Source of the DNA: Phycicoccus sp. Soil748 | Lineage (GTDB): Bacteria > Actinomycetota > Actinomycetes > Actinomycetales > Dermatophilaceae | Direction of reading: 5' to 3' | Assembly (NCBI RefSeq): GCF_001428025.1 | Contig: NZ_LMSC01000001.1 | Location: 140,424-177,423 of the forward strand | Length of the DNA: 37,000 bases | Part shown: one piece after another, positions 12,221-21,313 of the stretch | How the letters are laid out: each line of letters begins with the position of its first letter | Position numbering within the stretch: position 1 is the stretch's first letter | The notes under the pieces: model-generated | The model's database searches: none | What the model was told of the DNA's origin: nothing | The model's input: the letters and a program-made list of their open reading frames with translations, nothing else | Translations under genes and position numbers: made by a program

Positions 12221-12958
12221 TCAGGGGCGACCGTAGGTCACGTCGCTGGACCAGATGGAGCGCAGCGCCACGGCCTTGCCGGTGCGCGGGCTGTCCCACA
12301 TCATGCCGTTCCCGGCGTAGATGCCCACGTGGTAGGCGGGCGAGCCGAAGAACACGAGGTCACCGGGCTGCGGGTTGGAGACCGGGGTGGTCGCCTGGCG
12401 CTGCGCCTCGGCCGTGCGCGGCAGGCTGATGCCGGCCTGGCGGAAGACGTACTGCGTGTAGCCGGAGCAGTCGAAGCCCGCCGGCGTCGTGCCGCCGTAG
12501 ACGTACATGATGCCGGCGTACTGGGCCGCGATGCCCAGGATGCCGCCGACAGCGGGCTTGGAGACGACCGGCGCGGTGCGCTGGGTCGACCGGCTCGCGA
12601 CCGGGGCCGTGCGCTGGGGCACAGCCACCACGACAGGCTTCGGCTTCGGCTTCGGCTTCGGCTTGGCCGTCGCCTTGAAGCCGATGACGCCGAACGCGTC
12701 GGCGGCCTGCGGGGCAGCGGTCTTCGGGGCCTGCACGGCCACGGGGGCGACCGCAGCCGGCGCACCCTTGGTCGAGGGGTGACTCGCCGGGGCCGCCGAG
12801 GCGGGGAGGGCGAACGAGGCCACGAGGCCACCGGACGCCGCGATGACGGCGGTCGTCTTGACGGCCGGCTGGGCGGACTTCGCCGCGATGCCAGCCAGCT
12901 CGGACACGGGGTTGAAACGACCTGGCGCGCGGTGGCGACCAGCAGCGTGAGATGACAC
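12221..12958 (-). CDS. Secreted NlpC/P60 peptidoglycan endopeptidase under a c-di-AMP riboswitch
   Basis: The 245-residue product has a long basic N-region with GRHRAPGRFNPVSELAG and a hydrophobic export segment (about 32-56, ending PASAAPA). A Pro/Ala linker with a Lys-Pro run (about 98-108) leads to a C-terminal NlpC/P60 domain (about 138-245). The catalytic Cys164 is in AGFDCSGY and His210 is in AYHVGIYAGN. It should cut stem peptides in the cell wall, in growth or daughter-cell separation. GTG 12958 was chosen because GGAGG lies 10 bases upstream, right after the riboswitch; upstream in-frame codons fall inside the riboswitch. Expression is probably switched off when c-di-AMP is high. Confidence 0.92.
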   Translation of the reverse strand: MSSHAAGRHRAPGRFNPVSELAGIAAKSAQPAVKTTAVIAASGGLVASFALPASAAPASHPSTKGAPAAVAPVAVQAPKTAAPQAADAFGVIGFKATAKPKPKPKPKPVVVAVPQRTAPVASRSTQRTAPVVSKPAVGGILGIAAQYAGIMYVYGGTTPAGFDCSGYTQYVFRQAGISLPRTAEAQRQATTPVSNPQPGDLVFFGSPAYHVGIYAGNGMMWDSPRTGKAVALRSIWSSDVTYGRP

Positions 12959-12973
12959 GGTCAGAGAACCTCC

Positions 12974-13167
12974 GACGCCTACGAGGTGAGCTGTCGGGTT
13001 CGGGTGGAGGTAGGTCACCCGGCCCTCACGGTTGCCTCCCGACCTTGCGGGCGCTCTGGTGAGGACTTCACCCCGAGGACCGTCCGGAGACGGACCAAAA
13101 GTGGGTCCCCCGCTCCTGCCAAGCGGTCTTGCTGGTGACCCGGGCGTGGTGACAGGACTAGGCGATC
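12974..13167 (-). ncRNA. c-di-AMP riboswitch (ydaO-yuaA class) in the leader of the NlpC/P60 gene
   Basis: On the minus strand, CGCCTA (13164-13159) pairs with TAGGCG (12981-12976) as the closing helix. Inside are elements I recognise from the actinobacterial ydaO class: GGCAGGAGCGGGGGACCC, then GGGGTGAAGTCC, and near the 3' end CGAACCCGACAGCTCACC followed by TCGTAGGCG. This class binds c-di-AMP and commonly precedes NlpC/P60 and Rpf wall-hydrolase genes in actinobacteria. The GGAGG of the gene starts at the 3' edge of the closing helix, so ligand-dependent masking of the ribosome site or premature termination are both possible. I see no clear intrinsic terminator. Confidence 0.9.
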
Positions 13168-13210
13168 CACATCGGGCCAACCACCTCTAGGGGGTGAGGA
13201 GGTCTGGGAC

Positions 13211-17049: not shown

Positions 17050-17688
17050 ATGACCCAGACGCATGACGACCTGACCGAGCTCGAGGCCCAGTTCTCCGAC
17101 CACCTCGAGCTCTCTCACGAGGCTGCAGACCTGCTCTTCCGCGAGGCCCGGACCGCGAACACCTTCAGCGACGAGCCTGTCACCGACGAGCAGGTGCGCG
17201 CGATCTACGAGCTGGTGAAGTGGGCCCCCACCTCCATGAACAACCAGCCGCTGCGCATCGTCCTGGTCCGCTCGCCCGAGGCCCGCGCCCGCCTCGTCGA
17301 GCACATGGGCGGCAACAACAAGCCCAAGACCTCGACGGCCCCCCTCGTGGCGATCCTCGCCGCCGACGACGACTTCCACGACGAGCTGCCCAAGGTCTTC
17401 CCGATCTTCCCCGGTGCCCGTGACGCGTTCGCCGACGACGAGATGCGCCGCACCTCGGCCACCATGAACGCCACCCTGCAGATGGCTTACTTCATCCTCG
17501 GCGTGCGCGCTGCCGGCCTGGCCGCGGGCCCGATGACCGGGTTCGACGCCGCCGCCGTCACCAAGGAGTTCTTCCCCGACGGCAAGCACCGCGCCCTGGC
17601 CGTGGTCAACATCGGTCGCCCCGGCGACGGCGCGTGGTTCGACCGCCTGCCGCGACTCGACTACGACGAGGTCGTGACCACCGTCTGA
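17050..17688 (+). CDS. RutE-like malonic semialdehyde reductase (nitroreductase family)
   Basis: This 212-residue FMN-dependent nitroreductase-fold protein contains REARTANTFSDEPVTDEQVR followed by AIYELVKWAPTSMNNQPLR, then AGLAAGPMTGFDAAAV and HRALAVVNIGRPG. These match the RutE / malonic semialdehyde reductase group, which reduces malonic semialdehyde to 3-hydroxypropionate in uracil degradation and probably acts on other aldehydes or quinones. No rut genes are nearby, so the pathway link is weak and a general detoxifying role is possible. ATG 17050 was chosen to place the 20-nt palindrome upstream. An ATG at 17026, with GGGGA some 8 bases ahead of it, is a real alternative and would put the palindrome inside the coding region. 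Confidence 0.82.
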   Translation: MTQTHDDLTELEAQFSDHLELSHEAADLLFREARTANTFSDEPVTDEQVRAIYELVKWAPTSMNNQPLRIVLVRSPEARARLVEHMGGNNKPKTSTAPLVAILAADDDFHDELPKVFPIFPGARDAFADDEMRRTSATMNATLQMAYFILGVRAAGLAAGPMTGFDAAAVTKEFFPDGKHRALAVVNIGRPGDGAWFDRLPRLDYDEVVTTV

Positions 17689-17716
17689 CGACTGTCCTCA
17701 CCCTCCGGGCCACGAT

Positions 17717-17730
17717 CCGGACATGTCCGG
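17717..17730. promoter_or_regulatory. 14-nt palindrome upstream of the structured-RNA promoter
   Basis: CCGGACATGTCCGG is a perfect palindrome 8 bases before the -35-like hexamer at 17739. It could be an operator for the RNA transcript; at this GC content a chance palindrome is also possible. Confidence 0.3.
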
Positions 17731-17738
17731 TTATCCCG

Positions 17739-17767
17739 TTGCGCACGGCGCCCGCGCGACTTAGCGT
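17739..17767 (+). promoter_or_regulatory. Sigma-A-like promoter ahead of the structured RNA region
   Basis: TTGCGC (17739-17744) and TAGCGT (17762-17767) are separated by exactly 17 nt. Transcription would start near 17774, directly before the first predicted helix of the RNA. Confidence 0.5.
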
Positions 17768-17773
17768 CGGAGT

Positions 17774-17985
17774 ACACGGAAGGGAGGTGGTCCAGGAATT
17801 GATTTCATATTGGACGCGTGAGGTGACTGCGCGCTAGGTGCGCAACGTCGACTGCTTCGACGGCGCGACCCGCGCAATCCCAGCAGTTCACCGCAGCCCG
17901 CGGGCCGTGCAGGTCGTCCCCTGCACATGCTGAGCCGCTCGATTCGGCGAGGCGAGGCCCGCGGGCTGTTCCATGCCCCGGCCGG
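17774..17985 (+). ncRNA. Putative structured RNA (class not assigned) in the 356-nt gap before the DUF4232 gene
   Basis: No convincing gene lies between 17689 and 18044. Several helices can be drawn by eye: GTCCA 17790-17794 with TGGAC 17811-17815; a 9-bp helix with one bulge, 17822-17830 with 17883-17892; inside it a 10-bp hairpin at 17840-17866; and a 12- to 13-bp helix, 17894-17906 with 17956-17968. The last encloses a 7-bp hairpin (17907-17926) and a 4-bp hairpin (17934-17948). GGAGGTGG at 17783 precedes a possible TTG-started 12-codon frame (17799-17837, ending REVTAR), so a leader peptide is an alternative. The order of helices and a well-placed promoter favour a plus-strand structured RNA. 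I cannot name the class with confidence; the raiA motif is one candidate to test. Confidence 0.55.
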
Positions 17986-18044
17986 CCAACCCCGAGGTCG
18001 TCCCGGTCGTCCCAAGGGTGACGGCAATCGACAGGAGGCACGTC

Positions 18045-18737
18045 ATGGGAACCACGAGGCACTCCGCACGACGTCAGGTCTCGGGGCTCGCCCTCGTCGC
18101 GACGACGGGGCTGGCCCTGGCGGCCTGCGCCGGCAGCGGCGGCTCGGGCACGCCCGGCACGACGACCAGCAGCTCGGGACCGTCGTCGACCTCGACGACC
18201 TCGCCCTCGTCGTCGACCTCACCGAGCGCCGGGTCGTCCACCTCCGCGAGCAGCAGATCGTCGGGCACCAGTTCCGGCGGCACGTCCAGCTCGACCAGCG
18301 GCGGAGCCACGGCGGCGCACCGCTGCACCGCTTCCACAACCACGACCAGGGCCGTCACGCAGCCGGGCAGCGGCGCGGCGGGCAGCTTCGTCGTGGAGCT
18401 CGTCACGAGGAACACCGGGCGCAGCGCCTGCGACCTGCAGGGGTACCCCGGAGTCTCCCTCACGGCACCGGACACGGGGGCGCAGATCGGTGCCGCGGCC
18501 ACCCGGGACCTCGGCCAGTCCCCGTCCCGCGTGCGGCTCGCGCCGGGCGCCTCCGCCATGGCGCTCGTACGGGTCGCCCAGGCGGCCAACTACGGACCTC
18601 GCTGCCACGGGGCCAGGGCTGCGGGCTTCCGCGTCTACCTGCCCGGGGAGACCGCCGCCCAGTTCGCGCCATTCGCCGTCGACGCGTGCAGCAACACGGC
18701 AACACCCCTGCTGTCCGTGCGCCCCTTCCACCGCTGA
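18045..18737 (+). CDS. DUF4232 domain lipoprotein
   Basis: The 230-residue product has a lipoprotein signal ending LALAACAGS (lipobox cysteine about residue 28). A Ser/Thr/Gly-rich linker of about 60 residues follows, then a C-terminal DUF4232 domain starting near HRCTASTTTT, with NTGRSACDLQGYPGVSL and paired cysteines later. It is therefore probably anchored on the outer face of the membrane with a disulfide-stabilised beta-sandwich. The function is unknown; DUF4232 is widespread in actinobacteria. AGGAGG at 18033-18038 precedes the ATG at a good distance. The structured RNA region lies upstream and could be its 5' leader. Confidence 0.87.
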   Translation: MGTTRHSARRQVSGLALVATTGLALAACAGSGGSGTPGTTTSSSGPSSTSTTSPSSSTSPSAGSSTSASSRSSGTSSGGTSSSTSGGATAAHRCTASTTTTRAVTQPGSGAAGSFVVELVTRNTGRSACDLQGYPGVSLTAPDTGAQIGAAATRDLGQSPSRVRLAPGASAMALVRVAQAANYGPRCHGARAAGFRVYLPGETAAQFAPFAVDACSNTATPLLSVRPFHR

Positions 18738-18773: not shown

Positions 18774-19432
18774 CTAGACCCGTAGCGCGGCGGCCTCGGC
18801 CGCGAGCGCCTCGATGCGTGCCCAGTCCCCTTGTGCCACCGCGTCCTTGGGGGTCAGCCAGGACCCGCCGACGCAGCCGACGTTGGGCAGGGCCAGCCAG
18901 TCGGCCGCCGTCTGCGACGTGATGCCGCCGGTGGGGCAGAACCGCAGCTGGGGGCACGGACCAGCGACCGCGGACAGGTAGGGCCGACCGCCGCTGGCCT
19001 CGGCGGGGAAGAACTTCATCGCCTCCAGCCCGGCCTCGGCCAGCGTCAGCATCTCGGTGAGCGTGCCTGCGCCGGCGAGCAGCGGCAGCCCGGATGCGAG
19101 CGCCGCCTCGAGCAGCCGCGGCGGCGACCCCGGCGTGACGATGAACTGGGCGCCGGCGTCCTGCACCTGCCGCACCTGCTCGGGCGTGACCACGGTGCCG
19201 GCGCCGACGACCATGCCCTCGACCTCGGAGGCCACGGCCTCGATGGCGCCGAGCCCTGCCGCGCTGCGCAGGGTCAGCTCGATGACGGGTATGCCGCCGG
19301 CGAGCAGGGCCCGCGCCAGCGGCACGGCCTGCTCGACGGAGTCGACGACCACGACGGGGACGACCGGGGCGAGGTCGAGCAGGTCGGCCTCGCTCGAGAT
19401 CACGGGCTTGGCGACAGGGGCGGTCGCGGGGG

Positions 19433-19436
<4 letters not shown>
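18774..19436 (-). CDS. eda: KDPG / 4-hydroxy-2-oxoglutarate aldolase
   Basis: This 220-residue class I aldolase is of the Eda type. The catalytic Glu53 and phosphate-binding Arg57 are in VIELTLRSA, VGAGTVVTPEQV follows, and the Schiff-base Lys141 lies in MKFFPAEASGG. FCPTGGI supplies the phosphate loop near the C-terminus. It cleaves 2-keto-3-deoxy-6-phosphogluconate to pyruvate and glyceraldehyde 3-phosphate, the second step of the Entner-Doudoroff pathway, in the cytoplasm. Its ATG overlaps the edd stop by 4 bases, so the two are translationally coupled and under the same upstream control. Confidence 0.95.

Positions 19437-21313
<1,877 letters not shown>

Follow-up and report, generated by a model that had tools for sequence, protein, structure and literature searches.

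The interval from 17774 to about 17974 on the forward strand of the 37,000-nt stretch of Phycicoccus sp. Soil748 DNA analysed here (the window) encodes a stand-alone small RNA, a new member of the known Ms_IGR-5 family (RF02471). In a cmscan comparison of the window with Rfam, the RNA was matched with 86.4 bits (cut-off 45, E 5.7e-18) over the full model (1-184 of 184, not cut off). It was the sole Rfam match within the gap that separates the end of a nitroreductase-family gene (17688) from the start of a DUF4232 gene (18045), and the single Ms_IGR-5 match in the whole genome (3.97 Mb). The extent given is that of the model match, and both ends are therefore predicted. The first-pass annotation had placed a structured RNA in a gene-free gap at 17739-17990. 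Both were borne out, the RNA by the Rfam search it proposed, while the limits had to be refined. The raiA motif (RF03072), also a large conserved structured bacterial RNA and the class named there as the first to test, was rejected, as it gave no match at E<=1 in 17600-18150. Besides RF02471, a permissive Rfam search of that region yielded one match, with 17.8 bits against a cut-off of 50. The predicted fold of the RNA (-102.4 kcal/mol, z -4.1) was better than that of 200 out of 200 dinucleotide shuffles, and the longer interval starting at 17739 likewise folded better than its shuffles (z -3.3). The features on which the analysis rests are the following, all on the forward strand (+) and in window coordinates.

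17739..17767, +: predicted promoter, TTGCGC (17739-17744), 17 nt (N17), TAGCGT (17762-17767); seen in the sequence, same layout in 136/149 relatives
17774..17974, +: Ms_IGR-5 family sRNA (RF02471), whole RNA as matched; cmscan and fold z -4.1
17775..17778, +: P1, 5' strand (CACG); covarying helix
17778..17793, +: 16-nt element that can pair with the presumed 16S rRNA 3' end GGAUCACCUCCUUUCU, G-U allowed; pairing count and genome pattern search
17799..17837, +: 12-codon frame, UUG start, UAG stop, MISYWTREVTAR; conserved start and stop, frame counts, tree
17812..17815, +: pseudoknot, 5' strand (GGAC, codons 5-6); covariation of the first pair
17817..17820, +: P1, 3' strand (CGTG, codons 7-8); covarying helix
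17822..17830, +: P2, 5' strand (GGTGACTGC, codons 8-11); fold and covariation
17883..17892, +: P2, 3' strand (GCAGTTCACC, one U bulged); fold and covariation
17894..17906, +: P3, 5' strand; 13 bp, fold and covariation
17907..17926, +: hairpin inside P3, its loop holding the pseudoknot partner; fold and covariation
17916..17919, +: pseudoknot, 3' strand (GTCC in the loop); covariation of the first pair
17956..17968, +: P3, 3' strand; 13 bp, fold and covariation

The promoter-like sequence noticed in the first reading of the DNA is present, and although a strict sigma-70 scan of the locus returned no site, its layout is conserved. Of 149 relatives, 136 have the arrangement TTG-N17..21-TANNNT at the expected distance from the RNA; letter shuffles gave 0.45 on average (149 of 153 rows were counted; the other 4 could not be anchored). 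Among the same relatives, two positions upstream of the -35 box are occupied by an A in 122/149 and 126/149 cases, and most of them carry an A-rich, UP-element-like patch at -43 to -41 that is not evident in the window itself. As far as abstracts and passages of the respective papers go, the homologue of S. lividans (SLIV_16488 in strain TK24) was validated by RNA-seq (PMC8079986), that of S. avermitilis forms a separate sRNA transcription unit (PMC8780764) and the family locus of M. smegmatis overlaps an observed sRNA (PMC10454040). Family membership, the conserved promoter layout and these published transcripts support the view that the RNA is transcribed as a stand-alone unit from its own promoter and would act in trans, which was one of the two options initially put forward.

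The other option, in which the RNA would be a leader regulating the DUF4232 lipoprotein gene in cis, was suggested by the position of that gene, which in the window starts about 70 nt downstream of the RNA in the same orientation. The gene is present at 3 of the 11 loci of the genus (L001, L025, L033), whereas the RNA is present at all 11. Moreover, a crude gene caller, which errs in the window itself, placed the downstream neighbour on the opposite strand in 120 out of 180 loci, and neighbours differ between groups (gene names assigned by eye). Because the gene is not conserved together with the RNA and the neighbour is mostly on the opposite strand, we reject this reading; it is extremely improbable and already contradicted for the family. 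At all 11 genus loci a KDPG aldolase gene is found downstream on the opposite strand. In the window, the interval 18774-21313 (-) contains this gene (Pfam) and, beside it, a long ORF (19433-21313) that by eye looks like a dehydratase of the Entner-Doudoroff pathway. Elsewhere in the window, a c-di-AMP riboswitch (RF00379; 52.2 bits, cut-off 38) was found at 12961-13156 (-). It heads an ORF (12221-13180) that contains an NlpC/P60 domain; the start listed for this ORF is upstream of the riboswitch and has probably been set too early.

With respect to setting, the Ms1 RNA offers a comparison. It is likewise a stand-alone structured sRNA that is widespread in Actinobacteria, and its sites adjoin HAD hydrolase and oxidoreductase genes, according to the passages available from PMC9130861. 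Here, a nitroreductase-family gene (an oxidoreductase in the wide sense) lies upstream of the RNA and DUF4232 or KDPG aldolase downstream; there is no HAD hydrolase among the identified neighbours. In the excerpted part of PMC10454040, Ms1 and IGR-5 of M. smegmatis are separate entries.

The family is spread over the phylum. RF02471 was found in 11 out of 11 genomes of the genus, including that of the window, in 70 of 396 genomes of the phylum (35 of these over the cut-off) and in none of 14 control genomes. A model (R1) built from 67 relatives including the window, with P2 and P3, matches 119 of the same 396 phylum genomes; one RF02471-positive genome (G100) is missing from the R1 list. In R1 the 16-nt element and the usual stop are represented as sequence; P1 and the pseudoknot are not modelled as pairs. 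Within the order, 57 of 119 genomes have an R1 match, so the RNA is dispensable for some, and the window's own family includes at least four genomes without one. Carriers have a single match each, with the exception of one genome with two (G224, 7% contamination), and those that are named include Streptomyces, Mycobacterium, Nocardia, Micromonospora, Amycolatopsis, Cellulomonas, Nocardioides and Geodermatophilus. A DNA pattern scan of viral contigs gave no match.

For the comparative counts we used 199 loci, in 194 of which the 5' module was recovered with a regular expression. The 190 distinct modules comprised 153 of the Actinomycetes type (the main set) and 37 others (the deep set, consisting of L028, L030 and the matching loci of L040-L079). 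A substantial part of the loci (L080-L199; 120 loci, among the matches listed) was obtained with a pattern demanding GGAGGTGRTYC and GGACDYGTGAGGTGRCT, and since the pattern fixes these two stretches they are conserved by construction in this part; the pattern set no condition on the start, the stop, the P1 5' strand, the P2 3' strand, P3 or the GUCC loop. A held-out set contained 50 loci, one for each genome that was found by R1 and missed by RF02471. The shuffle controls given below ignore relatedness, and the tree corrects for the start and stop only.

The window carries all elements of the fold. Two helices had been read from the sequence at the outset, and both stood: the bulged 9-bp helix corresponds to P2 (one bulged U) and the helix of 12 to 13 bp to P3, which has 13 bp, is 100% complementary and encloses two hairpins. 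The 13-bp 3' helix is shared with the Rfam consensus. The consensus structure of RF02471 has P3, but P1, P2 and the pseudoknot are absent from it: the 3' strand of P2 is unpaired, and the 5' strand of P2 and the 16-nt element are paired elsewhere. An absence of covarying pairs had been named as a point that would speak against a structured RNA; P1, P2 and P3 covary in shuffle-controlled counts. More explicitly, on an alignment of 67 sequences (A1) the fraction of paired cells was 97.6% for P1, 99.3% for P2 and 96.0% for P3, and 16 of 30 pairs had changed on both sides (3 in P1, 2 in P2, 11 in P3 and 0 in the pseudoknot). On none of five measures did any of 500 shuffles reach the observed value, and structures that were slid along the alignment paired in 33-46% of cells. 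On the basis of the covariation, P1, P2 and the pseudoknot are part of the structure of the family.

P1, which joins the 5' end of the RNA to codons 7-8 of the short frame, was first proposed by RNAalifold. In a fixed register, 116/120 cells of the deep set are paired and 39 cells show double changes; for the held-out set the figures are 157/160 and 47 (0/500 shuffles as high). The helix occurs in versions as different as CGAG:CUCG, CCAG:CUGG, CGAC:GUCG, CGGG:CCCG and CGUG:CACG. The main-set figure in the same register is low (292/384 cells, 76.0%, versus 72.0% in shuffles) because rows like that of the window miss one base between P1 and the 16-nt element. A similar effect was seen for P2. 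In a first count with a crude anchor (117/153 rows), paired cells were not in excess (0.882 versus 0.879; double changes 10 versus 3.9), because an extra base in some rows had shifted the register; the aligned counts replace it.

The pseudoknot, which takes the form GGACG:CGUCC in the window, had to be assessed outside A1, as GGAC:GUCC hardly varies there and the alignment is thus uninformative. For the deep and held-out rows, the best hairpin whose loop contains GUC was chosen without looking at the partner; 28 of 85 rows were excluded for a different 5' strand or for lack of such a hairpin, and 21 of these were of a GGACC type that is shifted by one base. The first pair is Watson-Crick in 47 of the remaining 57 rows against 17.9 in shuffles (0/5000 as high), and takes all four forms (GC 23, CG 10, UA 8, AU 6). 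A longer pseudoknot that would include the third base of codon 6 (88/124 paired versus 57 in shuffles) was discarded, being non-significant on independent branches of the tree, and the same holds for the base before GGAC. In the single-sequence fold of the window, the pseudoknot does not appear and part of the 16-nt element pairs with GGAC instead. A local hairpin between GGUCC at the end of the element and GGAC was considered as a general feature and rejected, since its last pair is impossible in lineages that have CGAC, UGAC or AGAC; in those lineages the P3 loop base changes along. For the RNA of the window itself, the hairpin may represent an alternative state.

The 16-nt element at 17778-17793 reads GGAAGGGAGGTGGTCC, with GGAGGTGG as its core, and is located between the P1 strands with the start codon after it. 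All 16 positions can pair with GGAUCACCUCCUUUCU when G-U is allowed. The latter sequence occurs once in the genome and we take it to be the 3' end of the 16S rRNA; the stretch matched presumably comprises all of the single-stranded tail that follows the last 16S helix. A pattern covering all 16-nt sequences able to pair in this way has two sites in the 3.97 Mb, one in the RNA and the other on the reverse strand of the 16S-tail site. In 60 genomes of the class, the number of sites that match the pairing pattern ranges from 0 to 8; 47 of these genomes have a match, and many of the sites read AGAAAGGAGGTGATCC, which is simply the 16S tail in reverse complement. Within the family, all 16 pairs are kept in 136/153 main, 35/37 deep and 46/49 readable held-out modules. 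The main set has 18 mismatches in total, of which 14 affect the outermost position. The other variable positions alternate between A and G or between C and U, so that pairing is preserved. The fiftieth held-out locus (L238) is without the second GAGGTG, and 15 of its positions pair.

The element doubles as a very long Shine-Dalgarno sequence, and the partner that it offers to the 16S tail is far longer than initiation needs. One could argue that this is all there is to it, namely that heavy translation itself, by shielding the RNA or controlling its decay, is the point and that the pool of ribosomes is unaffected. The data that speak for this are the same as those that speak for an RNA that engages ribosomes to regulate them. 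We nevertheless regard it as unlikely, considering that all 16 positions are kept, far beyond what initiation normally requires, and that the element persists in lineages without the frame. It would also be conceivable that Ms_IGR-5 is an ordinary base-pairing sRNA that acts on particular mRNAs via its loops or its purine-rich stretch, the frame being secondary and serving, for instance, the control of RNA stability. The size of the RNA, its own promoter and the strong 3' stem fit such a role, and in the part of PMC4109619 that could be searched the M. smegmatis homologue is among the sRNAs co-purified with heterologous Hfq (a placement deduced from the name IGR-5 together with the excerpts of PMC10454040). 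The best-conserved accessible stretch, however, has the 16S tail as its obvious partner, and a stretch that resembles a Shine-Dalgarno sequence would be a poor means of selecting mRNAs, which makes this role unlikely.

The 12-codon frame that was tentatively pointed out earlier is present and belongs to the best-conserved features of the family. In the window it reads TTG ATT TCA TAT TGG ACG CGT GAG GTG ACT GCG CGC TAG and encodes MISYWTREVTAR followed by a stop. At the fixed position of the start codon, 152 of 153 main modules have NTG (62 AUG, 68 UUG, 22 GUG), and the sole exception (L176) has an AUG one codon later. All 153 have a stop at codon 13 (132 UAG, 11 UGA, 10 UAA). After removal of duplicates, an NTG-to-stop frame that ends at this codon was counted in 136/136 main, 16/34 deep and 35/45 held-out modules; neither of the other two frames gave a single case. 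A tree was made from 124 main rows with the start and stop traits masked. On it, the first base of the start changes at least 17 times and never to C, and at least 12 switches occur between the three types of stop. Given that the start and stop are kept in frame while their types change, the frame is likely translated. The start is located 8-11 nt past GGAGGUG in the main set (8-10 with a single 11, and one at 5, the place of L176) and 10-13 nt past GGAGG, a spacing longer than the usual Shine-Dalgarno optimum. The distance from start to GAG is 7 codons in the main set, with one case of 6; most modules of the other sets have 8 to 10, and two have 4.

Outside the main set the frame is less uniform. 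A near-cognate codon is the only start at the expected place in 15 deep and 6 held-out modules; such starts (CTG, ATT, ATC), with the stop kept, were seen in L042, L043, L048, L050, L051, L055 and others. The stop is absent in 7 held-out loci of the deduplicated count. In 8 of 49 held-out loci (L208, L214, L228, L234, L244-L246, L251) it is replaced by AGG, and these loci have a shortened 5' module in which the 16S complement is kept. In L065, L070 and L071 the frame is absent and the 16-nt element is kept; the RNA thus seems to exist without a frame in some deep lineages.

A conserved frame with a very long Shine-Dalgarno sequence ahead of it could also point to a minimal mRNA, in which the 12-residue peptide is the working product and the structure serves to protect the RNA or to tune its translation. 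The fact that start, stop and frame are kept is in line with this. Codons 2-4, however, are variable (21-30 different codons each in the main set), the constant residues 5-12 fall on positions of RNA pairing and residue 7 changes together with P1; moreover, some deep lineages retain the RNA without the frame. We therefore consider the minimal mRNA distinctly unlikely, although the peptide may matter. Given the free codons and the coincidence of the constant residues with pairing, it seems to be the act of translation rather than the peptide sequence that is conserved. According to the available passages of a Ribo-seq study (PMC4974804), the M. abscessus and M. smegmatis homologues are among the sRNAs with significant ribosome reads; the same passages state that many ncRNAs show footprints without clear evidence of translation, so that footprints need not mean translation.

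Taking together what was computed, i.e. family membership, the promoter, the 16S complementarity, the presence of P1, P2, P3 and the pseudoknot in the family and the conservation of the frame, we infer a reading in which Ms_IGR-5 would act in trans on translation, via the anti-Shine-Dalgarno tail of 30S subunits or ribosomes, with its own frame opening the fold. We give this reading about an even chance. An RNA of about 200 nt, made from its own promoter, would fold into a compact scaffold of P1, P2, P3 and the pseudoknot, the latter joining codons 5-6 to the GUCC loop within P3. The 16-nt element would then engage, in the cell and in trans, the anti-Shine-Dalgarno tail of 30S subunits or ribosomes, and thereby affect translation at large or the state of the ribosome. 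In most lineages, the engaged ribosome would start on the 12-codon frame and, running through it, would open the pseudoknot, P1 and P2 and end at the fixed stop. As the frame threads the pseudoknot, P1 and P2 and ends at that stop, translation would unfold and release the RNA, and so reset the fold.

Dual-function sRNAs, such as VcdRP (PMC8672173, as described in the excerpts of that paper), are alike in combining a trans-acting RNA with a conserved short frame, and a conserved translatable frame is indeed what the counts for Ms_IGR-5 reveal (152/153 starts, 153/153 stops; 35/45 held-out). Unlike in those RNAs, the frame of Ms_IGR-5 runs through its own fold and its residues track the RNA pairing. 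To our knowledge, a long 16S complement is not a known feature of dual-function sRNAs. The consensus structure of RF02471 contains neither the 16S complement nor the frame found in the window RNA. The family itself was known already; the 16S complement, P1, P2, the pseudoknot and the frame go beyond its annotation in Rfam. Among the listings, abstracts and passages covered, no paper was found to describe the 16S complement, the frame or the pseudoknot, and a function of Ms_IGR-5 was stated in none of the searchable literature on the family.

The revised structure raises the number of carriers from 70 to 119 in the same 396 genomes. The combination of a long complement of the 16S tail, a pseudoknot and a threaded frame leads to a directly testable hypothesis on the control of ribosomes by RNA, in a phylum that holds antibiotic producers as well as pathogens. 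More tentatively, and with doubt prevailing, Ms_IGR-5 could be the founder of a class of ribosome-capturing RNAs across the Actinomycetota, in which the 12-codon frame would serve as a timer or release switch and the RNA would determine how large the pool of 30S subunits is that are free or idle. Ms1 RNA binds the RNA polymerase core, and Ms_IGR-5 is likened to it as a regulator of a central machine by analogy only. If true, Ms_IGR-5 would be the ribosomal counterpart of the action of 6S and Ms1 on RNA polymerase.
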